Virus record (IMG/VR): IMGVR_UViG_3300027906_000025
Coordinates: 1 to 49,170 of that record
Strand: one strand, 5' to 3'
DNA from: a virus
DNA length: 49,170 bases
In this document: piece by piece, positions 13,040 to 46,641 of the stretch
Numbering within the stretch: position 1 is the first letter of the stretch
Layout of the letters: each line of letters opens with the position of its first letter
The notes under the pieces: model-generated
Told to the model about the DNA's origin: nothing
The model's input: the letters and a program-made list of their open reading frames with translations, nothing else
Database searches by the model: none
Position numbers and translations under genes: made by a program

Positions 13040-14368
13040 TTAATCTTTTGCGATAACAAAAGGAGAGGAGTTTATTGTTCTGGACGCCACATATGCAAAT
13101 ATAGTTCTCATTACATTATGCGTTTTTTCATTAGGTTTTTTGAAGTAATCGGATATGACTTTTCTTAAAGGATTCATTAATGTTATAGCAGATATAGCAC
13201 CAACATCTGCATTAAATTGATCTTTTAATTGTTTCTTTTCTTGTTGTTTTAAACCACCTGGTGGATTATATCTTCTATTGCCACCACCATGTTCATTATA
13301 TACTTTCATTGCCTTTTCAAATGCTGTATAACCTGTCTTAAAAGTATCGTGCATTTTTTTTCCAAAGGAAGGATCATTAATTTTAATCTGTTCTACTAGT
13401 ATAGGGAATGATGTAACCTGGCCACCGAGTGCTGACGCACCCTCATATTTTAAAACAACCTTAAATCCTGGCGATGGTTTACCACTAGCAGCAGGCGTGT
13501 GTCTAAATTGTAAAGTGCCATTGTATTTACCTGATTTTAATTTTGCATAGATGTCCCTATAACCACCTCTACCTGTAGAGTATTTTTGTACCCACTTAAA
13601 TGATTTATTTCCTACTTTATAACTACCTGCCATATCTTTATAAGGAAGAACACCGTTAGCAAATGTTTCTGCTAATAGTGCTTCTTCATCACTTCTTTTA
13701 AAGTTCACTACTTTTAATACAACATCTGATTTTGATTTAACTTGTTTAAGTGATAGTGGTAATAGTTCTCCTGCTTGGATCAGTTTACCTATCTTTGTAT
13801 TTAAAGTAGCAAATTTTAGATTACTTGCTTTAGTTTCTGGATCATCAACCATTTTTTTAATTTGTTTTTTTGCCAAATCTGTAGCAAAATAAATGTCTGC
13901 AGGCGACCACTTGTTTATATTACCAAAGAAAGTTGATTTTTTTGATTTTTTCCATTCTTCGTTTGCTGACTTATATAGAAGTGACATACCTTTCATCACT
14001 AGATCATCACCATGTTTATAAAAAATACCTTGTGCTTTAGGTGCCTGTATCCTTCCAAAGTTTTTAGATACTATAGATTGTATTTCTGTAATTAAATGTT
14101 CTGCGATTTTAAGTGATGAGATAAACCATTCAGGATTTTTTTCAATATAAGTTATTATAACAGTTTTTGATCTTTCTGTTTTAACTTCGCCTGATGAATA
14201 TCCTCTCTCTATTATTTTCTTATGCTGATCAAAAAATTCATCTGCACCTTTCATCTTTTTAATATAGGGTGCAAATTCTGTTTTAGTTTTTTTAACTCCT
14301 AAAACATCTGCTATATAACAGAATAGTGCTTGAGCGCCTTCAGCTTCTGGTGTGTTTGTTATTGCCAT
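13040..14368 (-). CDS. Unknown protein, possible PD-(D/E)xK-like fold
   Basis: 442 residues. The middle has NKWSPADIYFA (about 150-160), then about 45 residues on LLPLSLKQV. The spacing of a conserved Asp and a later S-L-K in a strand resembles PD-(D/E)xK nucleases, but I could not confirm the rest of the core, so nuclease activity is a hypothesis. Later blocks include YSTGRGGYRDIYAK and LQFRHTPAAS. A GATAAATA box ends five bases before the ATG, with no spaced Shine-Dalgarno, so the mRNA may be leaderless and late. Confidence 0.6.
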   Translation of the reverse strand: MAITNTPEAEGAQALFCYIADVLGVKKTKTEFAPYIKKMKGADEFFDQHKKIIERGYSSGEVKTERSKTVIITYIEKNPEWFISSLKIAEHLITEIQSIVSKNFGRIQAPKAQGIFYKHGDDLVMKGMSLLYKSANEEWKKSKKSTFFGNINKWSPADIYFATDLAKKQIKKMVDDPETKASNLKFATLNTKIGKLIQAGELLPLSLKQVKSKSDVVLKVVNFKRSDEEALLAETFANGVLPYKDMAGSYKVGNKSFKWVQKYSTGRGGYRDIYAKLKSGKYNGTLQFRHTPAASGKPSPGFKVVLKYEGASALGGQVTSFPILVEQIKINDPSFGKKMHDTFKTGYTAFEKAMKVYNEHGGGNRRYNPPGGLKQQEKKQLKDQFNADVGAISAITLMNPLRKVISDYFKKPNEKTHNVMRTIFAYVASRTINSSPFVIAKD

Positions 14369-14373
14369 ACATA

Positions 14374-14381
14374 TATTTATC
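14374..14381 (-). promoter_or_regulatory. Start-adjacent late promoter GATAAATA
   Basis: The box is followed by five bases (TATGT) and then ATG 14368. In T4 the late box spans about -13 to -6, so transcription would begin at the A of the start codon. The box overlaps the stop codon of the upstream gene. Confidence 0.6.
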
Positions 14382-14655
14382 TTCTCCCACGTCTTCTTGC
14401 TGGGGCTTTATATGATGATTTCCCTTTATCTAATATTCTTTCTTTTTCTGATCTTTGATCAAAGAAATTAGGAAAACCAAATATTCCAAACGTTTTATTT
14501 TTGTTTTGAAACTTGACTATCTTCTTAACATCTTCCTCAAAGAAAGATTGTTTTAAGACTAACTTACTAGGCATTTCTACAGCACGCCAAAGTATCTCAC
14601 CTTTTACTTTGACCATTTCTGTCTTATAATATATTGATGGTTTATTTTTCCTCAT
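14377..14655 (-). CDS. Small basic hypothetical protein
   Basis: 92 residues, highly basic, ending in RRRGRR. A central IVKFQNKNKTFGIFGFPNFF block may be beta-rich. It sits directly downstream of the gp41 helicase gene with a 4-base overlap, so it is probably made with the replication proteins. A nucleic-acid-binding role is a guess from charge. Confidence 0.6.
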   Translation of the reverse strand: MRKNKPSIYYKTEMVKVKGEILWRAVEMPSKLVLKQSFFEEDVKKIVKFQNKNKTFGIFGFPNFFDQRSEKERILDKGKSSYKAPARRRGRR

Positions 14656-16043
14656 ACTTTAAAATCACTAAATTTATCATACACATCAACATCTTGTGGA
14701 CCTGATGGTTTGTTTATTTGTTTTTCAGACTCTTGGTTGCCATCTGATAGATTTTGTGCTGATTGTTCTACATCATATAATCTCATCTTACTTCTATCAA
14801 CACCTATAATGAAAGCACGATTGACAGCAGGATCATTATATCTATTCTTTAATTGTTTAACTTTGATCTGTCCTAGTTCTTCTAACTCATCATTACTAAT
14901 TAAAGCAAACATAAAGTCAGCCGTTGCAGGAAGACCAAATGATTCTGATGTATCTTCTAAACCAACATCACTTGAAAGATAACCTGATCTTGTTGTTTGA
15001 GTTGCACTAACTATTGGTACATCATATTGTACTGCAAGACCTCTTAATTCTTCAGCGATTGCCTTAACATAGAAATATGAAGATATATTACCACCTTTAA
15101 ATCTACTACTAGAGCAAATGTTTAGATAGTCAATGAATACTATATCAGGTTTAAATGATTTCTTTAAAGAAAGTTCATCCATTAAATTTTTAAAATGACC
15201 TGCGTGAGCAGCTGCTGTAGGATATTCTTTAATGATTAATTGACCATTGATCTTACTTTGTAATCTTTTTGTCTTGGTATCGTATATGTCTTTTGGCATT
15301 TCATAAAGATCATCTATGGTCACGTCTAATAAATTAGCGTCAATTCTTTCTGCAATTCTTTCCTCTGCCATCTCTAAAGTTATGTACAATACATTTTTAC
15401 CTTGAGCAATTACACTACTTGCAACGTGGCACATAAACAAAGATTTACCAACACCTGTACCTGCAAGAGCAACGTTAAGTGTTTTAGGTGGAAGACCACC
15501 TTTTGTAATTCTATTGAAGTATGATAGATCAAATTTTAATCGTTCTTCTACTCTATGGTAATAATCAAATCGGTCATCTGCTTGAGCAATATAATCGTGA
15601 CCAATATGTCTATCAAACGAAACTCCTAATGCTTCTGATAATATACTTGGTATTGCTTCTGGTGTATTTTTTTTATCTTTACCATCAATGATTTTAATAC
15701 CATGCAATACTGCATTATACACAGCACGATCTTTACACCATTTTTCTGTTGTATCTAATAACCATTGTTGTTCAACTTCTTCGTGTGTTAAACTATTTAA
15801 TAATTGATTTGTATTTTTAAATTCATCTTCGGTTAGAGTTTTATTATTTGATAACTCAATAGCGATTGCTTCTTTTGAAGGCAATGCATTATACTTAATA
15901 ACAAAAGCATTTATGATATTGTATATTGTAACCTCATCTCTATTTCTAAAGAAGTCAGGTTTAATAAAAGGAATAGTTCTTCTGGTAAAGTCTTCGTTAT
16001 GGATTAGATTACTTAAAAGTGTTTTTTCAAATTGATCAGACAT
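14652..16043 (-). CDS. 41: Replicative DNA helicase (gp41, DnaB-like)
   Basis: 463 residues, close to T4 gp41 length. The N-terminal helical domain is followed by a RecA-type motor: Walker A AGTGVGKS (194-201), VLYITLEMAEERIAER (H1a), a Walker-B strand DIVFIDYLNIC, and a QTTRSG sensor. It unwinds the fork in the 5' to 3' direction with the primase. The acidic C-terminus ends DKFSDFKV. It overlaps the 2OG oxygenase gene upstream by 8 bases. Confidence 0.93.
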   Translation of the reverse strand: MSDQFEKTLLSNLIHNEDFTRRTIPFIKPDFFRNRDEVTIYNIINAFVIKYNALPSKEAIAIELSNNKTLTEDEFKNTNQLLNSLTHEEVEQQWLLDTTEKWCKDRAVYNAVLHGIKIIDGKDKKNTPEAIPSILSEALGVSFDRHIGHDYIAQADDRFDYYHRVEERLKFDLSYFNRITKGGLPPKTLNVALAGTGVGKSLFMCHVASSVIAQGKNVLYITLEMAEERIAERIDANLLDVTIDDLYEMPKDIYDTKTKRLQSKINGQLIIKEYPTAAAHAGHFKNLMDELSLKKSFKPDIVFIDYLNICSSSRFKGGNISSYFYVKAIAEELRGLAVQYDVPIVSATQTTRSGYLSSDVGLEDTSESFGLPATADFMFALISNDELEELGQIKVKQLKNRYNDPAVNRAFIIGVDRSKMRLYDVEQSAQNLSDGNQESEKQINKPSGPQDVDVYDKFSDFKV

Positions 16044-17981: not shown

Positions 17982-18269
17982 TTATATATCACTATTTGCA
18001 TTAAATTTTAGTGGTTCTCCCTCCCATTCGAATCGCAATTTATCGTCTTCTGGGATCCAAATTGATGGGGGATGCTCTAAATCGTCTTGTCTTATATCTG
18101 TCCATATCTTATCATACAGATCACCTGTGTCCATAGGTCCTAATTGTGTAAAGACACTACCTTTCATTTTAGAGAGTCTTTGTCTTAATAACTCTCTATT
18201 ATATTGTAGTAGTCTTTGATAATCCCAATACGCTTTCTTATCTTCGTAATCGGTTTTAGATATAGCCAT
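17982..18269 (-). CDS. Small hypothetical protein, predicted leaderless start
   Basis: 95 residues from ATG 18269 (MAISKTDYEDKKAYWDYQ). An ATG six bases earlier (18275) is possible, but the AATAAATA box sits exactly five bases before 18269, the spacing seen at other starts, so I prefer the second Met. The protein is charged, with a helical first half and a Pro/Trp-rich end (HPPSIWIPEDDKLRFEWEG). Function is unknown. It follows the SPASM-like gene. Confidence 0.6.
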   Translation of the reverse strand: MAISKTDYEDKKAYWDYQRLLQYNRELLRQRLSKMKGSVFTQLGPMDTGDLYDKIWTDIRQDDLEHPPSIWIPEDDKLRFEWEGEPLKFNANSDI

Positions 18270-18274
18270 ACTCA

Positions 18275-18282
18275 TATTTATT
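18275..18282 (-). promoter_or_regulatory. Start-adjacent late promoter AATAAATA
   Basis: The box is followed by TGAGT and then ATG 18269. It overlaps the stop codon of the SPASM-like gene. Confidence 0.5.
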
Positions 18283-18586
18283 ATTTGACCTTACAATATC
18301 TTTGACATGGACCTGGAGCTGTGTCAGGATCCTTCCATGTATCTGGTAGTTTTTTAGAAAACAATTCACTATCAACTATTTCTTTCATACTATGGTTGTC
18401 TAAATTATATTTTTCTTTGTTTTCTAAATACTCATCAACCCAAGGATGTGCCCCTTTGATAAAATGGTCATCTTCATCAAGTCTATCAAAGTTCCTTTTT
18501 AAATAACAACATTGAAATACTTGTCCATCTGGATTGACCAAGTATCTATTATTATTCTCACGCCATTTACAAATTATTTTCGCCAT
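18281..18586 (-). CDS. SPASM-like iron-sulfur domain protein, separate from its radical SAM partner
   Basis: 101 residues with five cysteines: Cys6 (IICKWRE), Cys26-Cys27 (DGQVFQCCYLK) and Cys94/Cys98 (PCQRYCKVK). C-x(n)-DGxVxxCC ... CxxxC resembles the SPASM/twitch auxiliary cluster domain normally fused to the C-terminus of radical SAM enzymes. The gene overlaps the end of the radical SAM gene by 20 bases in another frame, as if one enzyme were encoded as two chains. It could also be a sequencing frameshift of a single gene. Confidence 0.65.
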   Translation of the reverse strand: MAKIICKWRENNNRYLVNPDGQVFQCCYLKRNFDRLDEDDHFIKGAHPWVDEYLENKEKYNLDNHSMKEIVDSELFSKKLPDTWKDPDTAPGPCQRYCKVK

Positions 18587-19259
18587 GTGTTGTTTTCTCT
18601 AAAAATTCTTTTTGGCCTTTCTCGTTAGTAAAATGCCATTCCTTTTTACTATCAAATCTATCACTATAATAGTGTTGGTGATTAAGTGAGCCATGTGCTA
18701 GTGCTAAATCTTTTATCTCATCCATATAATCTTCATTGTGTTTAAATATAATACTTTGTGATAAAGGTATTGCTTTAGTCGCTGATAAACTTGTTAAAGC
18801 GTCTAATGATTTTTTAAGTGATGTACTTCTTCTATATTTCGTATGCATTTCTTCATCTATACCATCTACATCTATAACCATTGATAAACGTCTACCACAA
18901 TAAACACCTAGGTCCCAATAAAATTTATCTGTACGAATACTACCATTTGTAGTTATAAGCACTTTTGCTTTACTATAATCCATAATATAATGTACAATGG
19001 GTTGTATATCTTTTGCCATTAAAGGATCACCCCACGTTCCACAAAAACTTACTTCGCTTATATCTTTTAAACAATGTGTTGTAAATCGTTTTTTAAAATC
19101 TTCAAGCGACCATGTCGTTAAAGGTAAAGTCTTAACTGTACCTAAACCATTTACATCTGTTCTTTGGCATTGAGGACATTTTGCATTACACAAGTTCGTT
19201 ATTGCTACATCAACTGTCAAAGCCTTTTGTCTTAATAACCTTGGATTAATTACTAACAT
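18567..19259 (-). CDS. Radical SAM protein
   Basis: 230 residues. CNAKCPQC (Cys24, Cys28, Cys31) is the CxxxCxxC motif that binds the 4Fe-4S cluster. SFCGTWGDPLM is the GGEP-like strand, and KVLITTNGS and VIDVDGID continue the partial TIM barrel. The C-terminus lacks a second cluster; that is supplied by the next gene. SPASM-type partners usually modify peptides or proteins, so a peptide-modifying role is possible. AATAAATA-N5-ATG precedes the gene with no Shine-Dalgarno. Confidence 0.8.
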   Translation of the reverse strand: MLVINPRLLRQKALTVDVAITNLCNAKCPQCQRTDVNGLGTVKTLPLTTWSLEDFKKRFTTHCLKDISEVSFCGTWGDPLMAKDIQPIVHYIMDYSKAKVLITTNGSIRTDKFYWDLGVYCGRRLSMVIDVDGIDEEMHTKYRRSTSLKKSLDALTSLSATKAIPLSQSIIFKHNEDYMDEIKDLALAHGSLNHQHYYSDRFDSKKEWHFTNEKGQKEFLEKTTHGENNL

Positions 19260-19264
19260 AAGAC

Positions 19265-19272
19265 TATTTATT
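19265..19272 (-). promoter_or_regulatory. Start-adjacent late promoter AATAAATA
   Basis: Followed by GTCTT and then ATG 19259, five bases as at the other start-adjacent boxes. No purine-rich ribosome site lies upstream. Confidence 0.55.
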
Positions 19273-21734: not shown

Positions 21735-24232
21735 CCGAAGAAAGCCTCCAATGTTGCCTCACGTTCTAACTTCCACCCTATACTTTCCAATACAAGTCGT
21801 AATGGATCTGTAAATGTTTTAGTAAATTGTGTATCGTAATCTACATATTTGTGTAAATCAAATTCAGTAGGTATCTTTGTTGAGAAAGATATAACGGTAT
21901 CTTTAATTGTATTAGGTTGTTTTATCATTAAAAACTTTATCTTGTCACCATCTTTTATCAATGGATATTTTCTTTGTAATTTATTTTTAAGTAGATAATG
22001 ATTATATATTAAACTGCCTTTTACATGGATTGGTGTGCCTTTCTTATAGATTGAATTAGGATCAATATATTTGTCCAAGTAATTACAACTTCTAGGAAAG
22101 GCAACCTCCTCTGGCGAGAGTGTCTTAAATACTTCTTTGAAATCTGCAACAAACTTTATTAGAGAGTCTTCGCTCTCGTTCATTATAACTCTTATGGCGT
22201 CTTTAATCTTACCACGGCAGACTTCAGGTGTAGAAGACTTAACTGCTTCTACGCCCATAATTTTTAATTTAGGTTTATCAAATCTAATACCTTCTTCATC
22301 AAATACATTCATCATATATCTTTTTTTAGCAACCCATATTGCTTTGTTAGCAATTGATTCTCGTTTCATAATCATTTTTTGTTGATAAGCATTTACATAG
22401 TGAGCAAGGTTTTGAAAACTATCGTCAATTACTTTTTGTATTTTTTCTTCAGCAGCCTTGTTTATAAAATCTGTAATCTGTTGTGGTGATTTATCTTTAC
22501 AAACTTTTTCTACTAACTTATCTAATTTTAAATAAATTGAATCTGTATCAGACGCAACAACATAATTTACATTGGTTGTATTTAAAATCTTGTTCATAAA
22601 TTTATTGACATCTCTTTCAACCCAACGAATAGATAACTGACCACCCATTGTAATCGCCTCTGCTATTTTCACATCAAAATATCTAAAGTATTGATTGCCG
22701 ATTGCACCATAAGCAGAGTTAAGAGCAATCTTTTTTGCCATTTGAATATTATTACATCTACTAATCTCATTCTTATAGATAGGATCTTTTGTTTTTTGAA
22801 ATTCTTTTTTTGCGTCTATCGTTTTCTTTTTAAATACAACACGATCACCATACATCTTTTCCATAAGTTCAGGTAAGAAACCTTGTTTATCTCGTCTATA
22901 CATTGAGCCGTTAGGTGCAACGGTCACATTTTTATCTCTTGTCCATTGTAAATCAAACTTCTCATTTAGATAATTTTCTACACCCATATTCTTTGGTTCA
23001 ACACCGATTAGTGTTTCAGGCGATAAATTATACTGCATAATTAAATGTGGATATAGTGAGTTCAAATCAAACGAAACAATCCAATTATGCATACCTAGTT
23101 GTGGATCTTTTACATATGCACCTTCGTATTGTGTATCCTTATTGTGTTCTTCTCTAGGTGGTATGATAATATTCTTTTTAAGTAAATGATTATAGATGAT
23201 TGTATCCCAAACTCTTACCTGTGAATAGACATCTGTATAATTAACTTTGGCCTCATACGCCATAGTTAAGCATAGTTCAATCAATCTCATTTTATCTTCT
23301 AACTTATCAACTAGTTCAACATCTTGGATATTGTATTCTACAAATTGTTGATAGTCTTTTGTATAGAAGTCTTTAAATGTTTCATATGGATTATCTATTT
23401 TAGTTTCACCTAGTTCTACTTTGGCAATGTAATTTAGTTTATAAGACTCTTGCCTTACATAAGTAAATTTTTTATACAGATCAAAATAATCTAATATAGA
23501 TACGCCTAGTATATTCCAATATTGTTGATTCTTTTGGCCCAATTGTATTCTATCTGCATTGACATAATTCCATGGAGACATTTTATTAATTGTATCGTTA
23601 TCAAATATCATCCTCATTCTATTCATCAAATAAGGTATATCAAAAAACTTAACATTCCATCCAGTCACAATATCAGGATGATTTTTACACCAAAACTTTA
23701 GAAACTCTAGCAACATATGCTTTTCGTTCTGGCATTTTATATAGGTCACATTTGTTTTTTTAGAAATGAAATCACCTGTGCCCCAAGTTAATATCTGTTT
23801 ATTGCTATGATTTTTTACCGTAATACATATAACCGTTTCTTTTGCAGTATCAGGATCGGGAAAGCCGCTCTCACACTCGGTTTCAATATCAAGTGTGAAT
23901 ATCTTAATGTAATCTTTATTCCATCTTATCTCGTCTTTATATTCGTCACCTATGAATTGATAGTTGTATCTATTCATACCAAAGATTTTATACTCTGGTA
24001 TTGTACTATACTCACTATAGAAATGTTTTGCTTTTGATATAGAATTAAACTGCTTAGGTTTTAGTTTAGTACCGTCTAGTGCTTTAAATTTTGATTGTTC
24101 TTTTGTTGGCAGATATAGTTTAGGACTATAATTGATTCTGCTTAAATATGATTCACCATTATTGACACCTCGGATAAGTAATTTACCCTTGTATTCAATA
24201 ACATTCGTATAAAAACTACTCGCCAAATTCAT
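21731..24232 (-). CDS. 43: DNA polymerase, family B (gp43)
   Basis: 833 residues, slightly shorter than T4 gp43. The exonuclease has DIE (115-117), NVKFFDIPYL and YNIQDVELVD. The polymerase has motif A DLNSLYPHLI, motif B KIALNSAYGAIGN and motif C ASDTDSIY, all with the catalytic Asp residues present, so both activities should be intact. The ending LEREATLEAFFG resembles the clamp-binding tail. A consensus promoter puts TATAAT five bases from the ATG with no Shine-Dalgarno. In T4, RegA and gp43 control their own translation; here a leaderless start would change that. Confidence 0.97.
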   Translation of the reverse strand: MNLASSFYTNVIEYKGKLLIRGVNNGESYLSRINYSPKLYLPTKEQSKFKALDGTKLKPKQFNSISKAKHFYSEYSTIPEYKIFGMNRYNYQFIGDEYKDEIRWNKDYIKIFTLDIETECESGFPDPDTAKETVICITVKNHSNKQILTWGTGDFISKKTNVTYIKCQNEKHMLLEFLKFWCKNHPDIVTGWNVKFFDIPYLMNRMRMIFDNDTINKMSPWNYVNADRIQLGQKNQQYWNILGVSILDYFDLYKKFTYVRQESYKLNYIAKVELGETKIDNPYETFKDFYTKDYQQFVEYNIQDVELVDKLEDKMRLIELCLTMAYEAKVNYTDVYSQVRVWDTIIYNHLLKKNIIIPPREEHNKDTQYEGAYVKDPQLGMHNWIVSFDLNSLYPHLIMQYNLSPETLIGVEPKNMGVENYLNEKFDLQWTRDKNVTVAPNGSMYRRDKQGFLPELMEKMYGDRVVFKKKTIDAKKEFQKTKDPIYKNEISRCNNIQMAKKIALNSAYGAIGNQYFRYFDVKIAEAITMGGQLSIRWVERDVNKFMNKILNTTNVNYVVASDTDSIYLKLDKLVEKVCKDKSPQQITDFINKAAEEKIQKVIDDSFQNLAHYVNAYQQKMIMKRESIANKAIWVAKKRYMMNVFDEEGIRFDKPKLKIMGVEAVKSSTPEVCRGKIKDAIRVIMNESEDSLIKFVADFKEVFKTLSPEEVAFPRSCNYLDKYIDPNSIYKKGTPIHVKGSLIYNHYLLKNKLQRKYPLIKDGDKIKFLMIKQPNTIKDTVISFSTKIPTEFDLHKYVDYDTQFTKTFTDPLRLVLESIGWKLEREATLEAFFG

Positions 24233-24237
24233 AATAT

Positions 24238-24266
24238 ATTATAACACGATTGCCGCTTAATGTCAA
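24238..24266 (-). promoter_or_regulatory. Consensus sigma-70 promoter, start-adjacent, for gp43
   Basis: TTGACA (24261-24266), 17-base spacer, TATAAT (24238-24243), then ATATT and ATG 24232. The transcript should begin at or within a base or two of the start codon. The -35 box overlaps the stop of the upstream gene. Confidence 0.8.
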
Positions 24267-26516: not shown

Positions 26517-27182
26517 TTAAAATGTTGAATCAGCTTCTAATGCAATCCAGTATTGGACTTTAACTTTCTTATTGATAAAGTGAGCAATCTTTGCCTTTGA
26601 TAATGCAACATCATAATCGCCAGGAATAATTTTCATATTCTCGGCCTTGATATATGCAGTAAATTCTAAATCAGTTTCGCCGACTTCTACAGACGACTGG
26701 TTTGAGTTAGAGTTCTTTTTATCTAATGCAACAAGTTTTATCTTGCCTTTCTCACCTTTGAAAGCAATATCAGGTAGCGATAAGTTAGTATATAACTTCT
26801 TAACAGACTCATAGTCGCTATTCTTTAATGTAAATGCAACCGTCTTGTCTGGCATTGATATTGTTTTTGTTGGATATCTCAATGTAGATTTATCAGCAAA
26901 TGCATATCTAGCATTTAATGATGACTTCTCATCTTTGATTTTTAAATTAGCAGTACCATTAAAGTTCAACACAGGTTGTTGAAAACTATCTAATGCTCTT
27001 AAAAACTCTGGTAAGTCATATACTCCAAACTCACTTTCAAAGTTTTCTTCTACGTCTGCTTTTGCCATAATATTTCTCATGGTTGACATTGTTTGTAATG
27101 TCTTACCAGGAGTAAATAATATATTAGCATTAATATCGCTAAAATTTCTTAGGATACCAATTGTACTATCACTTATTTTCAT
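26517..27182 (-). CDS. 45: Sliding clamp (gp45)
   Basis: 221 residues, near T4 gp45 (228). The opening ISDSTIGILRNFSDINANIL and the strand pattern with KTISMPDKTVAFTLKNSDYE fit the trimeric clamp. In T4 it is both the polymerase processivity factor and the mobile activator of late transcription with gp55, whose gene is also here. AAGGAGATGAAATG gives the start. Confidence 0.92.
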   Translation of the reverse strand: MKISDSTIGILRNFSDINANILFTPGKTLQTMSTMRNIMAKADVEENFESEFGVYDLPEFLRALDSFQQPVLNFNGTANLKIKDEKSSLNARYAFADKSTLRYPTKTISMPDKTVAFTLKNSDYESVKKLYTNLSLPDIAFKGEKGKIKLVALDKKNSNSNQSSVEVGETDLEFTAYIKAENMKIIPGDYDVALSKAKIAHFINKKVKVQYWIALEADSTF

Positions 27183-27442
27183 TTCATCTCCTTATCATAA
27201 TTTAATAATAATATAACATAGTGTACTGCTTTTAATAAGTCAGCACGATTATGTCCCTTCTTCTTCCCATACCTACACAAATATTTAATTGCATTTGCAT
27301 GGCAAAAATCTTTTCCAATGTTTAGTGTTTTTAATAAGTCTAAAACTTGAAAGCCTTTTTGATCACTTGAATAGTGTTGGCCGTAAGTTGACTTAACATA
27401 ATCACCAATCTCTTTTAATATTTTATCTTCGTTGTATTTCAT
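27179..27442 (-). CDS. DUF3310 family protein
   Basis: 87 residues with HYSSDQKGFQVLDLL, then HANAIKYLCRYGKKKGHNRADLLKAVHY, the conserved DUF3310 core (nucleotide-kinase-like annotation in some databases, activity unproven). It overlaps gp45 by 4 bases. TATAAT lies six bases before the ATG and no Shine-Dalgarno exists, so the mRNA of the whole replisome operon may begin at this start codon. Confidence 0.85.
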   Translation of the reverse strand: MKYNEDKILKEIGDYVKSTYGQHYSSDQKGFQVLDLLKTLNIGKDFCHANAIKYLCRYGKKKGHNRADLLKAVHYVILLLNYDKEMK

Positions 27443-27448
27443 AATATA

Positions 27449-27477
27449 ATTATAACATTATTCTTTGTTAGAGTCAA
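27449..27477 (-). promoter_or_regulatory. Sigma-70 promoter, start-adjacent, of the replisome operon
   Basis: TTGACT (27472-27477), 17-base spacer, TATAAT (27449-27454), then TATATT and ATG 27442. The -35 lies inside the end of the peroxiredoxin gene. Confidence 0.8.
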
Positions 27478-28070: not shown

Positions 28071-28538
28071 TTATTTAATTGAGATAGTTCTAGCTTTTTT
28101 ATGTTCTGGAACAATTCTCTCTAAAGATATTCTCAATAGTCCATCTTTTAGTTCAGCGCCTTTGACTTCACAGTCCTCAGCGATTGTAAAAGACTTCTTA
28201 AAGTATCTTTTAGCGATACCTTTATGAATCATCTCCTCGTCTTTATCAGCGTCAGCGCCAACAGAATCGTTGACAACTTCTTTGACTTTAGACTCGATAG
28301 ATAGAACACCTTCCTCAAGGTTAATGTCTATATCTTTTTTGTTATAACCTGCAAGAGCGATTTGAATATCGTACTTGTTCTTTCCTTGTTTCGCTATATT
28401 GTAATGCGGGAAAGCAGGGATGTTTTTAATATGATCTAATTGATGATCAAACATTGATTCAAAATGTCTGAACGTGTCATCAAACCCTACGGTTAATGGT
28501 CTTAATTGATTGAAAATAGATAGTGCTTTATTGGTCAT
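28071..28538 (-). CDS. Small heat-shock protein, Hsp20 family
   Basis: 155 residues: helical N-terminus (FRHFESMFDHQL), then an alpha-crystallin domain (about 50-145) with YDIQIALAGYNKKDIDINLEEG and GLLRISLERIVPE, and a C-terminal K-x-I-x-I-like tail (ARTISIK). It is an ATP-independent holdase. Marine T4-like phages often carry it; a role in capsid assembly or host stress is proposed generally, not shown here. GGAGG precedes the ATG, and the leader contains a hairpin. Confidence 0.93.
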   Translation of the reverse strand: MTNKALSIFNQLRPLTVGFDDTFRHFESMFDHQLDHIKNIPAFPHYNIAKQGKNKYDIQIALAGYNKKDIDINLEEGVLSIESKVKEVVNDSVGADADKDEEMIHKGIAKRYFKKSFTIAEDCEVKGAELKDGLLRISLERIVPEHKKARTISIK

Positions 28539-28573
28539 TGTAACCTCCTTTTATTAAGCAAAGTTAATTTTCT

Positions 28574-28595
28574 GACAACCCTATAAGGCGTTGTC
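28574..28595 (-). promoter_or_regulatory. 5'-leader hairpin of hsp20
   Basis: Minus-strand RNA GACAACGCC-TTATA-GGGTTGTC forms a 6- to 8-bp stem with one unpaired G. It lies between the promoters and the ribosome site without covering GGAGG. It could protect the 5' end or take part in temperature control. Confidence 0.45.
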
Positions 28596-28599
28596 TATT

Positions 28600-28629
28600 A
28601 TTATATAGTAATTATTTATAATATTTCAA
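28600..28629 (-). promoter_or_regulatory. Nested early (sigma-70) and late promoters of hsp20
   Basis: TTGAAA (28624-28629), 18-base spacer, TATAAT (28600-28605). A perfect late box TATAAATA (28613-28620) lies inside the spacer. Hsp20 could thus be transcribed both early and late from sites about 13 bases apart. Confidence 0.6.
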
Positions 28630-28767: not shown

Positions 28768-29010
28768 TTAAATTTTTTTAACTTTAGTTCCTTTAACCCA
28801 ACGATACCCTAATAATTCATCATTTGCTTTCTGAGCTTTTCTGATTAACTTTGATCGTTCTTTGGCCTTTTCACGTTTTTTTTCAGATGGTTTCATAAAG
28901 TATTGCCTTGCTCTTACTTCTTTTACAAGACCTGCCTTCATAACTTTCTTCTTTAAGACTCTCATGGCCTTCTCTAAATTACCACCTCTTACTTCAACTG
29001 TAATTGACAT
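28768..29010 (-). CDS. rpsU: Ribosomal protein bS21
   Basis: 80 residues. SITVEVRGGNLEKAMRVLKK and RARQYFMKPSEKKREKAKER are the bS21 core; the basic helix RSKLIRKAQKA follows. The family is known in bacteria and in several phages, where it may replace host S21 on 30S subunits and bias initiation, since bS21 lies near the anti-Shine-Dalgarno. The phage version has a short C-terminal extension (GYRWVKGTKVKKI). A GGAGG site precedes the ATG. Confidence 0.93.
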   Translation of the reverse strand: MSITVEVRGGNLEKAMRVLKKKVMKAGLVKEVRARQYFMKPSEKKREKAKERSKLIRKAQKANDELLGYRWVKGTKVKKI

Positions 29011-35099: not shown

Positions 35100-36070
35100 T
35101 TACTTAATATGTTATCAAACTCTTTATAATATTCTTTTTCAGTTGGTAGTTTATTTAAGAAATTTGTCTTTATCTTATTTAACCACTTATCTGACTTTTT
35201 TACTTCTCTTATTTTATCACATAACTCATCTTTTGTAAAGACTCTCTGGAAAGTGTCTGCTACTAGTATGTTATTTGTATCATATTCTTTCCATACAAAT
35301 GGGAATACATCACAAGCAAGTGATTCGGGATATCTACCTGTGACAGCAGTTTGATCAATCCAGTTAAAACAAACGGTTGTTATTGCCTCATCTAGGTAAC
35401 CTACAATCTCGTTCATTTTGATCCACTTCTTTTCTACAGGAAAAGGCCATCTTCCTATAATAGTTGATGATACTTCTTTGTCTTTGTTTATCTCTTTTAT
35501 AATTTTAAGTCTATCATCACCTGTCTTAACGCCTCCTGCGTTTTTACTTTTATCTGATCCCCAATATATAAAATCAAATTTCTTCTCACTAGGAAATCTA
35601 TATTGTCTTTGTATGTAATGATATTTTAAAGCGTGTAATCCTAGTTTAAAATCCATTTCATCTATTGTTGTAAATGATTTAGGTTTTACTTTGTTCTCAA
35701 ATGTATATTGCATTATAAGATTTTCATTTACACCTCTATCTTGTGTAAGTAATATAATATGTTTATTGTTAAGATACTCATATGCTTTTCTAATCTCTGC
35801 TTGTGATTTTTCTATATCTCGTGGGTGCATAGCATTTGCAAAGTAAATAAATTCTTGTACAGCAGGGAATATAATTACTTCAGCGTCTTTAAGATTTTCT
35901 AAATTTCTTTCTGCACCTTTATTAGCAAACGCAAAATTGTAATAACTATATTCGTGTTGTTTATTATTGTTGGCATACTCTCTAAAACATTCATAGAAAA
36001 CGTCCATACCATATTGTAATACTTCGGTATAATTAACTTTCTTTCTTAAACTTGCAAAACAAATTTTCAT
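35087..36070 (-). CDS. Possible GT-B glycosyltransferase
   Basis: 327 residues. The N-terminal half is Rossmann-like (MKICFASLRKK, AEVIIFPAVQEFIYF, HIILLTQDRG). The C-terminal half has DFIYWGSDKSKN and VSSTIIGRWP, then TGRYPESLACDVFPFVWKEY, which resembles the nucleotide-sugar end of GT-B enzymes (gR.yEaLacG..p), and a terminal helix. No DxD is needed in this fold. I am unsure of family and donor; it could modify DNA, lipopolysaccharide or a small molecule. It overlaps the dehydrogenase gene by 13 bases. Confidence 0.5.
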   Translation of the reverse strand: MKICFASLRKKVNYTEVLQYGMDVFYECFREYANNNKQHEYSYYNFAFANKGAERNLENLKDAEVIIFPAVQEFIYFANAMHPRDIEKSQAEIRKAYEYLNNKHIILLTQDRGVNENLIMQYTFENKVKPKSFTTIDEMDFKLGLHALKYHYIQRQYRFPSEKKFDFIYWGSDKSKNAGGVKTGDDRLKIIKEINKDKEVSSTIIGRWPFPVEKKWIKMNEIVGYLDEAITTVCFNWIDQTAVTGRYPESLACDVFPFVWKEYDTNNILVADTFQRVFTKDELCDKIREVKKSDKWLNKIKTNFLNKLPTEKEYYKEFDNILSKCLK

Positions 36071-36882
36071 ATATTACCACCTATATTCCAAAACATTATA
36101 TCACCTTCTAGTTGTTCTATGTTTTGTTCTAACCACCACCATGCTTTTCTATCCCACGTTCCATTGCAAGGAAAAGGTACTTCATAATCTGTCATCATAT
36201 CTTCAAAGGGATATTGTGTTTTGTATATGTTGATTGAATCAGAGGTCATACTATAATCTTTTTTAAACTTATCATCTATTGTTGATATATTTGAAACGGT
36301 TATAATGTGTGCTTGTTTATTTGAATTAGAAAACAAATCATCACCTGGTTGAAATGCCTCTACTATACCAGAAGAGGTTACGCCTGATCCTGCTGATACA
36401 ACAAGATGATCTACTAAATGTTCTTTAAATGTTTTATCTGCTCTTGTCTTTAAATCGTTTCTATAATCCTGATGGTCAAACGCATACGGCAACATCTGTA
36501 TATCATTTTGTCTTGCATATTTTTTTACTTGTGCATATAGTATTGCCATCATATTAGGTTTAAGTTTATAAAATTCACACTTGTTTGCTTTTGCTTTATC
36601 TAATATAAATTGACTATATGTTTTAGATGGTGCATATGCATAGATAAATTTTATACCTCTTCTCTTACATAGTTCAGATAATGCCCAGCCTGACCATGAC
36701 CCATTTACTGCAAGGTGTATTAAAGGATATTTAGGATTAATATGTTTTTGAAGTAGGGCGTCTATACCTGTTATCTTACCCCAAGGTGGTAGAATATTAT
36801 TGTCGCCTACTAGATCATCACGTTTAACTAGTATTGTTCTACCTTTTAAAGTATATTTTTCAACAGGTGTATTTTGATTCAT
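36067..36882 (-). CDS. PLP-dependent enzyme, ACC deaminase/D-cysteine desulfhydrase-like
   Basis: 271 residues, shorter than bacterial relatives (about 330). VKRDDLVG then PPWGKITGI puts the PLP lysine at Lys36. SAGSGVTSSGIVEAF is the phosphate-binding loop. The end FWNIGG resembles the family's C-terminal strand. This fold-type II family deaminates or desulfhydrates small amino acids. Which substrate is used is unknown. TATAAT lies seven bases before the ATG without a Shine-Dalgarno, so this cluster's transcript may be leaderless. Confidence 0.75.
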   Translation of the reverse strand: MNQNTPVEKYTLKGRTILVKRDDLVGDNNILPPWGKITGIDALLQKHINPKYPLIHLAVNGSWSGWALSELCKRRGIKFIYAYAPSKTYSQFILDKAKANKCEFYKLKPNMMAILYAQVKKYARQNDIQMLPYAFDHQDYRNDLKTRADKTFKEHLVDHLVVSAGSGVTSSGIVEAFQPGDDLFSNSNKQAHIITVSNISTIDDKFKKDYSMTSDSINIYKTQYPFEDMMTDYEVPFPCNGTWDRKAWWWLEQNIEQLEGDIMFWNIGGNI

Positions 36883-36889
36883 AGTATAT

Positions 36890-36918
36890 ATTATACACTA
36901 TAACTAGAAAATTGTCAA
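36890..36918 (-). promoter_or_regulatory. Sigma-70 promoter, start-adjacent, of the metabolic cluster
   Basis: TTGACA (36913-36918), 17-base spacer, TATAAT (36890-36895), then ATATACT and ATG 36882. Confidence 0.8.
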
Positions 36919-41754: not shown

Positions 41755-41758
41755 AATG

Positions 41759-42307
41759 TTATATATCTAATACGGAACTATAGGTTCTTCTCTTTCTTTT
41801 TTTTATTTTTATTTCTTTTTTATTAGGTGTTTCATCACTAGGTTTATTTTTTCTTAAAAATTCTAGGAACTGATTCTTGTAGTCGTTTTGAGTGTCTCCT
41901 GGTAATACGCTAAACTCGTCTATGTTACCTTGTTCAATCATCCGATACTTAATGTTAGTTTGTTTTTTCTCTTTCTGTATTCGTCTGATAAAAGCGTAAT
42001 AGATTATTTGCGTAAAGTAAGCAAAAGGATTATTACTCTTTTGAGGATTAAAGTTATCTAGGTATTGTAAGCAGTTTTCTATACCATCTGAAATCATATC
42101 ATCTCGGAATGTATAGTTTATAAAATTAGGTCTGTAAGACAAGTGGTTAGCAATCTTTAAAAAACACTCACCTATATAATTGGTCACAGGTGGCTTCTTT
42201 CTTTTTCTTTTTTCTGCTTTTTCAACTTTGTCTTTGTATTCAATCATCGCTTGTAGGAAGACTTTATTATCTACATAATGTTCTGATTTTTTTCTTGTTC
42301 GTGTCAT
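41759..42307 (-). CDS. 55: Late-transcription sigma factor gp55
   Basis: 182 residues, like T4 gp55 (185). FRDDMISDGIENCLQYLDNF with PFAYFTQIIYYAFIRRIQKE is the reduced sigma region 2 that reads the TATAAATA late box. The acidic/basic C-terminus would contact the clamp. The promoter lies six bases from the ATG and there is no Shine-Dalgarno, so gp55 itself may be made from a leaderless early message. Confidence 0.93.
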   Translation of the reverse strand: MTRTRKKSEHYVDNKVFLQAMIEYKDKVEKAEKRKRKKPPVTNYIGECFLKIANHLSYRPNFINYTFRDDMISDGIENCLQYLDNFNPQKSNNPFAYFTQIIYYAFIRRIQKEKKQTNIKYRMIEQGNIDEFSVLPGDTQNDYKNQFLEFLRKNKPSDETPNKKEIKIKKRKRRTYSSVLDI

Positions 42308-42313
42308 AATTAT

Positions 42314-42341
42314 ATTATATCATATTTGTTATATAAGTCAA
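42314..42341 (-). promoter_or_regulatory. Sigma-70 promoter, start-adjacent, of gp55
   Basis: TTGACT (42336-42341), 16-base spacer, TATAAT (42314-42319), then ATAATT and ATG 42307. Confidence 0.75.
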
Positions 42342-42351
42342 GGACCTATGG

Positions 42352-42597: not shown

Positions 42598-42603
42598 GGT
42601 CGC

Positions 42604-42632: not shown

Positions 42633-42659
42633 AACCATGCTGGTTCAAACCGAGGAACC
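42633..42659 (+). ncRNA. Possible antisense or small RNA 5' hairpin
   Basis: Just after the plus-strand promoter are AACCA-TGC-TGGTT and GGTTC-AAACCGAG-GAACC, two mutually exclusive hairpins. The second would form at the 5' end of an RNA starting near 42640. On the minus strand the same bases could be a weak 3' structure after the Sm-like gene. No 3' end is apparent. Confidence 0.35.
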
Positions 42660-42671
42660 TAGCTAGTACGA

Positions 42672-43145
42672 TTAATGAATCTTTTTAGAAGGCATTTTAA
42701 GTAGTTCAGCAACATTATCAAAGTCTTCCTTTCCTATATCTCTCTCATAAGGATCGGACTCAATTCCATTATCTAATTCTTTATCTGTCATATTTCTTTC
42801 AATATAACCTGGCAACTGCTGTTTAGCATTTTTTAATGAATGAGTAAGATCAGCATATCTACGAGTAAAAGCAGCCGTAGCATTGCATATGGTCACAATC
42901 TTATCTATTGGTATTGTGATTATTTTTTCATCTGTAAAACCAACCCACCTCACTAGCGCTATATAATCAGATATGCCATGTTCCGTTATACGAGGCACAT
43001 ACTTAATTAACATAGGTTCTTGTAATCTTAATAGTTTAGAGTTTTCAGGTAGTTGATTTTTATGTAAAGGAAACTTACAACAGATTTCCTCTCCAGAAAC
43101 CAGTCTGATAATCTTAACTGACTTTGTATCAATACGATTAATCAT
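42672..43145 (-). CDS. Possible Sm/Hfq-like protein
   Basis: 157 residues. The opening SVKIIRLVSGEEICCKF resembles that of the 100-residue protein next to regA (LYRLTTGEDIIG). Both have a strand, a Ser/Thr-Gly-Glu turn and a second strand, as in Sm domains. Then come IALVRWVGFTDEKIITIPIDKI, more strands, and a helical C-terminal extension. The fold is inferred. GATAAATA ends five bases before the ATG with no Shine-Dalgarno. Confidence 0.6.
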   Translation of the reverse strand: MINRIDTKSVKIIRLVSGEEICCKFPLHKNQLPENSKLLRLQEPMLIKYVPRITEHGISDYIALVRWVGFTDEKIITIPIDKIVTICNATAAFTRRYADLTHSLKNAKQQLPGYIERNMTDKELDNGIESDPYERDIGKEDFDNVAELLKMPSKKIH

Positions 43146-43149
43146 ATAA

Positions 43150-44616
43150 CTATTTATCTATTTCAATGGTGTGGATCTCATAATTAAATCCTTCCCTATT
43201 ATAGATATTAACCCTTTCTTTAAAGTGGTTTAAAGTAAAGTTATCTTTACCTTTATAAGATAGGTCATCGCTAATATCGTACACAGTAGCGCTATCTTTC
43301 TTATCACCAACCCTTAATCCTCTACCTATACTTTGTAATACTCTTATAGGGCTTTTAGTAGGGCTACTAAAAACAATGTTGTGTAAATTACGAATATTGA
43401 TACCCGTACTGAACGTGCCGTAAGAAGCCACGATAATAGCGTTGTCTTCTCTTTCGGTAATTGCTCTAATTTGTTCTCTATCATTTGTATCTGTTCCACC
43501 AAAAACGAAAAATACTTTTCGTTCTTTATCTGCTTTTTCTTTAATTAGTTTAAATAAAATCTCACCATGCTTTTCTACTAGTTGAAATAACAAAAGCGTG
43601 TTGCCTTTTAACGCTAGAGCAAGATTTCGTATGTATTTATTCCTTGGTTTGCTAGAAGTTATATACTCTAGTTCCTCAAAGTATTTTACATCTTTTACTT
43701 TCTTTGATTCAACATCATTGTATTTTAGATTTAAGCAGATAACCTTTAATTGAGCGAGTTGTTTTCGGTCAATGAGTTCAGCTGTAGATACCACCTTGTT
43801 GACCATACCAAACAAACCTTGCAATACTAACTTGTGAGTTTTACTATCATCTAAAGTTCCTGTAAGACCTATTCTGTATTTGCAATCAGTTAGTTTAGTC
43901 ATTATCTTCGTCAATGAAACGGCCTTAAATAAGTGTGCCTCATCTCCTATCACAGCACCATAGTCTTCAAAAAACTTCTTTGGTAGTTTATATAATGACT
44001 GCCAAGTTGAGATAACGATTCGTTTATTCTCATCTATATCATAGCCGTGATATTTTCTACTGACATTTGTTTCCACATCATAACCATATGATTTAAAGTC
44101 TTTGTATAATTGTTCTACTAGTGATGTTGTTGGTACAATGATTAAAATATTATTATCTATCATATTCAGATAGTGGCGAATCAACATATAGATAATAAGT
44201 GATTTACCAGAGGCAGTTGGTGATACAATCATACCACGATTGTGTTCTAACGCAAACTTGAAAGCTTCAATTTGATAATCCCTCGGTGTGATAGACATAT
44301 CGTACTCTTGTATTAATCCGTCTATATCGGCGGCTGTGTGTCTGCTATAATGCAAAATATCACTAGATTCAACTATATGTATGGATTTCTTATTACACCA
44401 GTCTTTTAGATAAGGGTATAATCCAAGATACATTTGACCTGTTGCATATGAAAAAAGTCTGATTTTACCATCCCAGACTCGTCTTCTAAATTGAGGTGTA
44501 AATTTATATCCTGGTACTTCAAAGGAGAAATAATCGCTTAACTCTCTTGTAATGGACTGATCGGCGTCTATACGAATATAAACATCATTCACTTTATCAA
44601 CGATTATGTTTTGCAT
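43150..44616 (-). CDS. uvsW: UvsW helicase
   Basis: 488 residues. Superfamily 2 motifs: TPRDYQIEAFKFAL (Q-like), SPTASGKS (132-139), VIGDEAHLF (DEAH), RIGLTGTLDD, VASYGTFSTGINIRNLHNI and SIGRGLRVGDK. The N-terminal domain with PQFRRRVWDGKIRLF is the UvsW DNA-binding part. It unwinds R-loops and branched DNA and shifts replication to the recombination mode. One base separates it from uvsY. Confidence 0.95.
   Translation of the reverse strand: MQNIIVDKVNDVYIRIDADQSITRELSDYFSFEVPGYKFTPQFRRRVWDGKIRLFSYATGQMYLGLYPYLKDWCNKKSIHIVESSDILHYSRHTAADIDGLIQEYDMSITPRDYQIEAFKFALEHNRGMIVSPTASGKSLIIYMLIRHYLNMIDNNILIIVPTTSLVEQLYKDFKSYGYDVETNVSRKYHGYDIDENKRIVISTWQSLYKLPKKFFEDYGAVIGDEAHLFKAVSLTKIMTKLTDCKYRIGLTGTLDDSKTHKLVLQGLFGMVNKVVSTAELIDRKQLAQLKVICLNLKYNDVESKKVKDVKYFEELEYITSSKPRNKYIRNLALALKGNTLLLFQLVEKHGEILFKLIKEKADKERKVFFVFGGTDTNDREQIRAITEREDNAIIVASYGTFSTGINIRNLHNIVFSSPTKSPIRVLQSIGRGLRVGDKKDSATVYDISDDLSYKGKDNFTLNHFKERVNIYNREGFNYEIHTIEIDK
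43151..43158 (-). promoter_or_regulatory. Start-adjacent late promoter GATAAATA
   Basis: The box is followed by GTTAT and then ATG 43145. It overlaps the final Asp-Lys-stop codons of uvsW. Confidence 0.6.
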
Positions 44617-44617
44617 T

Positions 44618-45046
44618 TTAGACTATGCCAGATGTAAATTTCTGCCAGTCTATTGCGTTCTTAATTTGAAAGCCACGATTAGAAATCATTTTAACTGTTC
44701 TATCTAGGTAATCAACAATGCTTGAAATATAAACTACTTTTTGTTCTAACTTAATAATCTCATCATCTGATTTTAGATACTTATCCACATCTTGTTTTAA
44801 TATTTTTAAATTGAAAGGTTTTAACTGATACACGCTAGGGTCTGCCTTACCTGTATAGTATTCCCATTTATCTCTTGTTAATTTTGCTAAATCTTGCTCG
44901 GCCTTCTTCAATAGATTAGTATATTGATTATGGAATTTCATCCACTTATTATGCAAGGCTGGTGTCTTTAATGATTCAATATCTAATTGAACATTGTCTA
45001 TCTTTAGGTCTTTTTCTGCTAGTTGTTGTAATTCGTCAAAGGTCAT
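44618..45046 (-). CDS. uvsY: UvsY recombination mediator
   Basis: 142 residues, near T4 UvsY (137). DNVQLDIESLKTPALHNKWM and KWEYYTGKADPSVYQLKPF are characteristic; a coiled-coil C-terminus follows. UvsY loads UvsX on gp32-coated ssDNA. Its start overlaps the HNH gene by 4 bases, so translation may depend on that gene. Confidence 0.92.
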   Translation of the reverse strand: MTFDELQQLAEKDLKIDNVQLDIESLKTPALHNKWMKFHNQYTNLLKKAEQDLAKLTRDKWEYYTGKADPSVYQLKPFNLKILKQDVDKYLKSDDEIIKLEQKVVYISSIVDYLDRTVKMISNRGFQIKNAIDWQKFTSGIV

Positions 45047-45513
45047 TGTATTGTCTTTCTCAATTGTTTCATTGCATATCCAAATAGAACGTGATTACGC
45101 ATTTGTAATCTGTCCTCTTTGGTATATATACGACCATATGAGCCGTTGTTTTTACCAGTTAATTTCTTACCGATAAGTGCTTTTGTTTCATCACTATGCT
45201 TTTGTCCTAGATGTGATCTATTACCTAACGCATTTTTATTACCTATCTTTGCTACTGATAGTTTTTTTATTGTTTCTTTAGACGCTTTTCTACCTAGTTG
45301 GGCAAGTCTTCTTTTCATTTGTATTAATTCATAACCCTTAATAGTTTTAGATAGACCTAGATAAGCAATCTTGTCTTGCCAATGACCATATTGTTCATAT
45401 AGTTTTTTATGTGCAAGAGCGTGTTGTTTTACGGAAAGTAATTTGATATTACTAGGGCGATTAGAACCACCCATATGCTTAGGAATTATATGATGTTTAT
45501 GCAATTTGTTCAT
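45043..45513 (-). CDS. HNH homing-type endonuclease
   Basis: 156 residues. HHIIPKHMGGSNRPSNIKLL and HALAHKKLY form the HNH core (His7-His8, Asn, His). Then come NUMOD-like DNA-binding segments with repeated KAS/SDETK, IGKKLTGKNNGSYG and KHSDETKAL. It is a free-standing endonuclease of the type that spreads in T4-like phages. It has its own start-adjacent promoter, and its stop overlaps the uvsY start. Confidence 0.9.
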   Translation of the reverse strand: MNKLHKHHIIPKHMGGSNRPSNIKLLSVKQHALAHKKLYEQYGHWQDKIAYLGLSKTIKGYELIQMKRRLAQLGRKASKETIKKLSVAKIGNKNALGNRSHLGQKHSDETKALIGKKLTGKNNGSYGRIYTKEDRLQMRNHVLFGYAMKQLRKTIQ

Positions 45514-45518
45514 ACTAT

Positions 45519-45547
45519 ATTATATCACTTATCAATTATTTAGTCAA
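45519..45547 (-). promoter_or_regulatory. Sigma-70 promoter, start-adjacent, of the HNH gene
   Basis: TTGACT (45542-45547), 17-base spacer, TATAAT (45519-45524), then ATAGT and ATG 45513. It probably also serves uvsY and uvsW. Confidence 0.8.
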
Positions 45548-45559
45548 GGACTAAAGGAC

Positions 45560-46378
45560 TTACGATACGACTTCTATCGTTGTATTACTTGTAATTGTAA
45601 CCGTTATTGCTGTTGATCCTGCAGGTGCTTTTGTAAATCTAACTACGTTACCTGATACGATATGATAGTCAACACCTCTTTTCATTAATACACCACCAAC
45701 TAGAATATCTGCTCTTTCAGCGGCTGTGCTTAGTGTAAATGAAGTTGTGATACCATCGCCTGTGAAAGAATCTACTATACCATTTGCTGTTGCAAACTCA
45801 TATATCTTATACTCAAAGGTCACATTTGCTGTTAGATAATTTATATCTGTTTCTTGTTGATTATAATCTAATCCAGATAATGAAAGAGGATATACATCTC
45901 TAAATCTTACTTCAATATTAGGGTTATTCTTACTTGTTAAAATAAAAAGAGTTGCGTCTGAATATAAACCACCGTCATCACCTGTTGGACTTTTGACTTG
46001 TCCTATATCATTAAATATTCCTTCATCTTTTGTTGTAGGATATCTATCAGAACCTGAATTTTGTATTGCTCTAAATTGTGAGTGATCTTTAGGAAATCCT
46101 AGACCAGTCATCCAACCATGTATCTCTCTATAGTTTTCTAAATTTTCATCTACTAAAAACGATATGTTAAGTGTACCGTATTCTACTTTATCACCAGGGA
46201 TAGGTATATCTTTTAAAGGTGTCGCCTGATTGAAAGTTCCCATTGTAATACCAGGGATATTTGCAGCCGTGCAAAAATACTCTACTTTAGGTAATTTAAG
46301 AAGACTAAACCTAAACTTTGTAGGTTCTGCATAGTCTAATTTAGATGGTTGTCTTGTGTATGCATTTATAACAGTCAT
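45560..46378 (-). CDS. Virion structural protein, tail-tube-like fold
   Basis: 272 residues. Residues 1-205 have KFRFSLLKLPKVEYFCTAAN, IPIPGDKVEYGTLNISFLVD and NYREIHGWMTGLGFP, a pattern I associate with tail-tube-like proteins of marine T4-like phages. Residues about 208-270 form a separate strand-rich tail domain (SFTGDGITTSFTLS, ILVGGVLMKRGVDYHIV). It could be a tube or baseplate component; I cannot assign a T4 gene number. GATAAATA-N5-ATG gives a late, leaderless start, which suits a structural protein. Confidence 0.7.
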   Translation of the reverse strand: MTVINAYTRQPSKLDYAEPTKFRFSLLKLPKVEYFCTAANIPGITMGTFNQATPLKDIPIPGDKVEYGTLNISFLVDENLENYREIHGWMTGLGFPKDHSQFRAIQNSGSDRYPTTKDEGIFNDIGQVKSPTGDDGGLYSDATLFILTSKNNPNIEVRFRDVYPLSLSGLDYNQQETDINYLTANVTFEYKIYEFATANGIVDSFTGDGITTSFTLSTAAERADILVGGVLMKRGVDYHIVSGNVVRFTKAPAGSTAITVTITSNTTIEVVS

Positions 46379-46382
46379 ACTA

Positions 46383-46628
46383 CTATTTATCTGTTTTATC
46401 TACTTCTTCCCACTCTTTTGTTTCGGCTTCAGTTTTAAGTTTCTTCTCATTATCTGTTAAAACACTTTGACTTTCCTCTGCTTTATCCATTCGTTCTTCT
46501 ATGTTTTCTAAAGGGCCAGGAGTTTGAAGATGATTAAGTGTGTAAGATAATAGGGCAAAAAGAGCGAATAACAATGCTAGACATTGTATAATCTTTATAA
46601 ACTCTTTTCGTTTTGGTAGATGTTTCAT
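46383..46628 (-). CDS. Small membrane protein with cytoplasmic or periplasmic coiled coil
   Basis: 81 residues: basic N-terminus, one transmembrane helix (IIQCLALLFALFALLSYTL, about 13-31), then a charged coiled coil to an acidic end. The layout is spanin-like or that of a membrane-anchored assembly factor, but nothing identifies it. TATAAATA-N5-ATG gives a late start without a Shine-Dalgarno. Confidence 0.65.
   Translation of the reverse strand: MKHLPKRKEFIKIIQCLALLFALFALLSYTLNHLQTPGPLENIEERMDKAEESQSVLTDNEKKLKTEAETKEWEEVDKTDK
46384..46391 (-). promoter_or_regulatory. Start-adjacent late promoter GATAAATA
   Basis: The box is followed by GTAGT and then ATG 46378. It overlaps the last codons of the upstream small gene. 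Confidence 0.65.
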
Positions 46629-46633
46629 ACTTT

Positions 46634-46641
46634 TATTTATA
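46634..46641 (-). promoter_or_regulatory. Start-adjacent late promoter TATAAATA
   Basis: A perfect late box followed by AAAGT and then ATG 46628. It shares three bases with the hairpin at 46639-46664. Confidence 0.75.

Follow-up and report, generated by a model that had tools for sequence, protein, structure and literature searches.

T4-like phages of the pelagimyophage type express, with a probability that we put at roughly 85%, a subset of their genes from promoters fused to the AUG start codon, giving what would be leaderless mRNAs. The stretch of DNA analysed here (the window, 49,170 bases) derives from a T4-like phage that, among named phages, is closest to Pelagibacter phage Mosig EXVC030M. 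Its genes run in the order major capsid, small genes, gp3, uvsY, uvsW, the gene starting at 43145, gp55, gp47 and gp46, and it also encodes gp45 (the clamp, PF09116), RegA, DNA polymerase and the ribosomal protein bS21. The late sigma factor gp55 was assigned by synteny with Mosig and Syn9, together with a sub-threshold match to Sigma70_r2. The closest relative, the gene order shared with Mosig and HTVC008M, and bS21 all fit a phage of the pelagimyophage type (Kyanoviridae).

The late box ATAAATA occurs 16 times on the minus strand of the window, slightly more than the 14 or so estimated by eye in the initial annotation, and not at all on the plus strand. The six sites singled out there are all present: each reads NATAAATA-N5-ATG on the minus strand, with a spacer of exactly five bases (referred to below as N5).

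14366–14381, minus strand: GATAAATA-tatgt before ATG 14368, predicted leaderless late start of a 442-aa gene (13040–14368)
18267–18282, minus strand: AATAAATA-tgagt before ATG 18269, gene 17982–18269, the weakest case
19257–19272, minus strand: AATAAATA-gtctt before ATG 19259, radical-SAM-type gene 18567–19259
43143–43158, minus strand: GATAAATA-gttat before ATG 43145, gene 42672–43145, between uvsW and gp55 (PHROG 471, "methylamine utilization"-like)
46376–46391, minus strand: GATAAATA-gtagt before ATG 46378, gene 45560–46378, gp3-type tail completion or tail tube family (PHROG 45)
46626–46641, minus strand: TATAAATA-aaagt before ATG 46628, small protein of 81 aa downstream of the major capsid gene

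In five of the six genes the N5 ATG is, as judged from the reading frames, the true start. No other ATG start lies within 110 nt of it, an in-frame stop is located 15–54 nt upstream, and the next in-frame ATG is 114–240 nt downstream; in-frame TTG codons follow the ATG at 39 nt (19259) and 54 nt (46628). ATG 18269 is the weakest of the six because a rival in-frame ATG at 18275, 6 nt upstream, overlaps the box and an AAGG stretch lies further upstream. A properly spaced Shine-Dalgarno (SD) sequence had been described as missing from these starts, and indeed no SD of at least 4 nt was found at any of them (0/6), compared to 27/54 of the other starts in the window. Upstream of ATG 46628, at 46634–46660, there is a GC-rich hairpin ggggcttcgccc, which lacks the U-run seen in related loci and has the look of a decayed terminator.

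Four further boxes in the window provide an internal contrast, being separated from the ATG by a leader.

Box start 5814, minus strand: leadered late promoter, 60 nt to ATG
Box start 13035, minus strand: leadered late promoter, 92 nt to ATG
Box start 28619, minus strand: leadered late promoter TATAAATA of the Hsp20 gene (28538–28620), 74 nt to ATG, AGGAGG ribosome site
Box start 46952, minus strand: leadered late promoter CATAAATA (46906–46952), 39 nt to ATG, AGGAGG ribosome site

The genes behind these four boxes carry ribosome sites of the ggag or aggagg type, as the initial annotation had stated, so that starts such as 46906, 28538 and 5747 combine a leader with a good SD.

The concentration of boxes at a single distance is very unlikely to be accidental. 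The window has six of its 16 ATAAATA boxes at N5, compared to 0 of 798 occurrences of 20 permuted 7-mers (binomial p ~1e-13). When ATGs are counted by distance from the box there are six at a distance of 5, whereas the other distances between 0 and 199 average 0.33 and never exceed 2. Random strands generated with a first-order Markov model contained 0.59 N5 patterns on average and never more than 4, a count that disregards whether the ATG opens a gene; in the window all six do. In a set of eight genomes, of the pelagimyophage type or related to it, the N5 arrangement is found at 44 of 350 boxes, in 28 gene families, compared to 21 of 13,346 for the permuted 7-mers. These genomes are the window (6/16), Mosig (5/56), HTVC008M (7/45), the OM43 phage Melnitz (3/42) and the IMG/VR genomes G001 (8/63), G002 (7/43), G004 (3/39) and G005 (5/46). 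In HTVC008M the ATGs concerned are located at 6280, 7562, 19456, 31132 and 49760 on the plus strand and at 18916 and 16007 on the minus strand. No N5 box was found in T4 (0/65), Syn9 (0/38) or S-PM2 (0/59), together 0/162, and two further cyanophages have 2/47 (P-SSM4) and 1/29 (P-HM1). Among called genes that begin with an NTG codon at N5, 44/46 use ATG.

An unbiased positional scan of 6-mers identified TAAATA at −11 to −6 as the second strongest signal in the pelagiphage set; the same scan of T4 and the cyanophages lacked this signal and gave only SD-like or weak ones. The strongest signal, TATATT at −6 to −1, proved to be of mixed origin, coming partly from SD spacers and partly from sigma70 −10 regions. 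The GC content of the window is only 32%, and the pattern could in principle be a chance product of A+T-rich sequence combined with selection by the reader. This explanation, to which we give almost no weight, is refuted by the permuted 7-mers, which have identical composition and show no peak; furthermore, the binomial p is far below 1e-10, and independent genomes repeat the pattern. The assertion that the six sites are far above chance is therefore upheld, and the genome-wide count of distances proposed at the same time gave the five-base peak both here and in the relatives.

The arrangement is strongly conserved at some of the genes concerned. For gp3 it is present in 78 of the 79 relatives whose upstream sequence could be read (the exception, L059, has N8), and it is kept across several unrelated upstream contexts, terminators among them. 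For the gene at 43145 it is present in all 80 related loci, which comprise 29 distinct upstream sequences, and for the gene at 14368 in 5/5 orthologs, with differing upstream sequences. The IMG/VR loci are partly redundant, and distinct upstream sequences were counted. Small genes placed similarly to the one at 46628, immediately behind strong terminators in L003, L010, L039, L061, L071 and L076, are also N5, as is a DNA-end-protector-type gene (identified from the HTVC008M annotation) in 6/8 genomes. Conservation differs among the six sites: gp3, 43145 and 14368 are conserved, but 18269 (3/9 related loci) is only weakly so, and N5 at 19259 was found only in the near-identical contig L087 and not in the distant relatives compared. 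Nor is the arrangement universal, because upstream of gp3 in Melnitz (L376:9243–9275) the sequence TATAAATAGTAGTATG is kept but its ATG is out of frame, and the gene starts 17 nt further on, behind a short leader with an SD-like AAGGG. This looks like a conversion between a leaderless and a leadered start.

The position of the box relative to the start codon can be compared with its known function. The late box of T4 occupies −13 to −6 (PMC1524935), and a five-base spacing therefore makes the A of the start codon position +1. Evidence that does not lean on T4 is provided by the leadered late boxes of these phages, 91% of which have a purine at the sixth base downstream; this is the sharpest purine position (others range from 33% to 70%), and at N5 the A of the ATG falls exactly there. 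The base at −1 of N5 sites is a pyrimidine in 43/44 cases, compared to 46% at other starts (p = 4e-13). A pyrimidine–purine step is the usual initiator. Both features support a predicted +1 at the A of the AUG. A start site shifted by a single base would give an incomplete AUG or a 1-nt leader.

Further evidence comes from terminators. At 21 of 113 distinct N5 sites, a hairpin followed by a U-run (an intrinsic terminator) ends 3–21 nt upstream of the box, and with a stricter cut-off terminators are found at 5/44 N5 starts (11%) but only 4/1125 other starts (0.4%). At such loci, transcription from upstream should stop just before the box, and the start of the mRNA must therefore lie no more than a few tens of bases from the ATG, in a stretch with no SD. 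From the spacing, the −1 pyrimidine and the upstream terminators, we infer that the mRNAs have their 5′ ends at the A of the N5 ATG and are hence leaderless. Weaker structure at the 5′ end of the N5 mRNAs was seen as a trend only (mean −2.3 vs −2.9 kcal/mol, p = 0.05).

Several boxes overlap the preceding gene's stop codon, where they read D-K-stop. Coding constraint could therefore account for part of the conservation of the box, and the genes may be co-transcribed and translationally coupled. One could propose that the box, although a genuine late promoter, serves mainly the downstream cistrons, with the first gene translated by coupling from read-through mRNA, and that the exact spacing is an outcome of compact gene packing. 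The frequent location of the upstream stop inside the box and the very compact genomes of both host and phage would suit such an arrangement, which we consider improbable: packing predicts neither one sharp distance (the counts in G001 are 8 at N5, 0 at N4 and 2 at N6) nor a pyrimidine at −1, in many loci terminators end the mRNA arriving from upstream immediately ahead of the box, and gp3 remains N5 where the upstream genes differ.

It is less probable still that ATAAATA next to the ATG is a translation signal in the RNA, such as an AU-rich enhancer or a protein-binding site (a RegA target, for example), and no promoter at all. The box does occupy the position of a ribosome site, and RegA is encoded in the window. 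However, the same box occurs 13–60 nt upstream of leadered genes that have an SD, these leadered boxes share its downstream preferences (T at position 2 in ~60%, purine at position 6), and the box is found directly behind terminators and matches the known late box of T4 and cyanophages.

Start codons fused to a promoter are not limited to late boxes. The k-mer scan led to five window genes, at 24232, 27442, 36882, 42307 and 45513, with the arrangement TTGAC-N16/17-TATAAT-N5–7-ATG on the minus strand.

24230–24266, minus strand: TTGACA-N17-TATAAT-N5-ATG, gp43 DNA polymerase, predicted leaderless, conserved in G001 and G002
27440–27477, minus strand: TTGACT-N17-TATAAT-N6-ATG, gene 27179–27442
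36880–36918, minus strand: TTGACA-N17-TATAAT-N7-ATG, gene 36067–36882
42305–42341, minus strand: TTGACT-N16-TATAAT-N6-ATG, gp55 late sigma (41759–42307), predicted leaderless
45511–45547, minus strand: TTGACT-N17-TATAAT-N5-ATG, gene 45043–45513, with no ortholog beyond the window for comparison

The strict consensus form is clearest in the window, G001 and G002. For gp55, 34 of 46 distinct upstream sequences of orthologs retain a sigma70-like promoter 4–8 nt from the start. By this consensus T4 has no sigma70-type promoter adjoining an ATG, and in cyanophages such promoters are located ~21–27 nt or more from the ATG. Judged by these motifs, mRNAs of the early or middle phase also appear to be leaderless, forming a second, early-type class. 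The leaderless mode suggested in the initial annotation is borne out by the spacing, the lack of SD, the conservation in relatives and the count of 0/65 in T4, but its restriction to late genes is too narrow, given the sigma70-type cases at gp55, gp43 and three other genes. A host-wide cause was considered and rejected. No ATG-adjacent sigma70-type promoter was found in three podoviruses that infect this Pelagibacter host (a weak test, with few promoters), and phiM19 and Cr30, T4-like phages of other alphaproteobacteria, have no N5 boxes, although their late box may differ.

We favor promoter–AUG fusion, for which the following mechanism may be proposed. Through the fixed placement of a −10-type element, transcription would initiate at the A of the start codon, with late boxes of the gp55 type (NATAAATA) exactly 5 nt before the ATG and sigma70-type −10 hexamers 5–7 nt before it. 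RNA would be begun at this A by the host RNA polymerase at the sigma70-type promoters and by the gp55 enzyme at the late boxes. The resulting mRNAs would have a 5′-terminal AUG and no SD, and 70S ribosomes presumably bind the 5′ AUG directly. Direct binding of the ribosome to the 5′ AUG is described for leaderless mRNAs (PMC9031893). For the N5 genes, we infer both the dependence on gp55 and the 70S-type initiation. Other late genes keep leaders and ribosome sites, such that both modes of starting would coexist in one phage.

The window encodes its own bS21, within the small-gene cluster upstream of the Hsp20 gene.

28768–29010, minus strand: bS21, phage-encoded ribosomal protein (Pfam PF01165, E = 9e-17)

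As an addition to promoter–AUG fusion rather than an alternative, the phage bS21 might alter the ribosome in favor of 5′-AUG mRNAs, as the initial annotation had suggested. bS21 is present in the window, Mosig, HTVC008M, Melnitz and G001–G003, and absent from T4, the tested cyanophages, phiM19 and Cr30; moreover, it is a core gene of pelagimyophages (PMC7029224), which also counts in favor of such a role. However, G004 and G005, whose records may not be complete, show the N5 peak without a bS21 match; gp55, which is needed before late transcription and expected to act ahead of the late genes, is itself among the genes with a sigma70-type leaderless start; and the correlation comes from one lineage only. 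The correlation is suggestive, yet bS21 is not shown to be necessary, and we regard help from it as doubtful. The contigs of G004 (L353–L359, 40% GC) and G005 (L360–L367, 37.5% GC) were located through a radical SAM gene. A slightly less doubtful, still speculative idea is that pelagimyophages use leaderless (sigma70-type and gp55 promoters) and SD-led modes within one infection, and that changes to the ribosome as infection proceeds, through phage bS21 and the shutting off of host initiation, move output from one set of mRNAs to the other, in the manner of a translational switch.

The arrangement shares features with several known systems. Late promoters of T4, which depend on gp55/gp33/gp45, resemble those of the window in having a TATAAATA-type box, no −35 element and a purine at the sixth base, and the window has homologs of gp55 and gp45; in T4, however, ~12–30 nt including an SD separate the box from the ATG, whereas a subset in the window is at exactly 5 nt. 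Late promoters of cyanomyoviruses (S-PM2, Syn9) have the same NATAAATA box and the same order around gp3-uvsY-uvsW-gp55, but with leaders of ~20–37 nt (boxes ~19–37 nt before the ATG) and no N5 boxes (0/97 in these two phages). The cI mRNA of phage lambda is a phage mRNA that begins at its AUG. It has been named as a model leaderless mRNA (PMC9031893); it represents, however, one repressor gene of a temperate phage, whereas the window has a recurrent promoter design at many genes. A similar layout is seen in promoters of Deinococcus-Thermus (PMC12340547), where a −10 element lies a short fixed distance before the start codon, with no SD and a leaderless mRNA; these use a bacterial housekeeping sigma factor, in contrast to the phage late sigma box and sigma70-type promoters of a lytic phage. 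Leaderless mRNAs and T4-type late boxes are thus both known already, and it is their fixed fusion at many genes that we did not find described. No description of leaderless late mRNAs in T4-like phages was found in the open-access literature, although one may exist elsewhere, for instance in the Syn9 start-site study, and the published pelagiphage transcriptome concerns podovirus-type phages and contains no start-site mapping.

T4 late transcription is the textbook system of leadered, SD-bearing mRNAs. A group of its relatives, phages of SAR11 among them, seems to fuse promoter and start codon at many genes, among them gp55 and DNA polymerase. Prediction of middle and late promoters in pelagimyophages was unsuccessful (PMC7029224), and for the late promoters AUG-fused promoters may explain this failure. 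The fusion yields exact predictions of 5′ ends for dozens of genes and corrects the annotation of starts. It would also offer a natural test of leaderless initiation by the ribosomes of streamlined bacteria, and of the role of the phage bS21.
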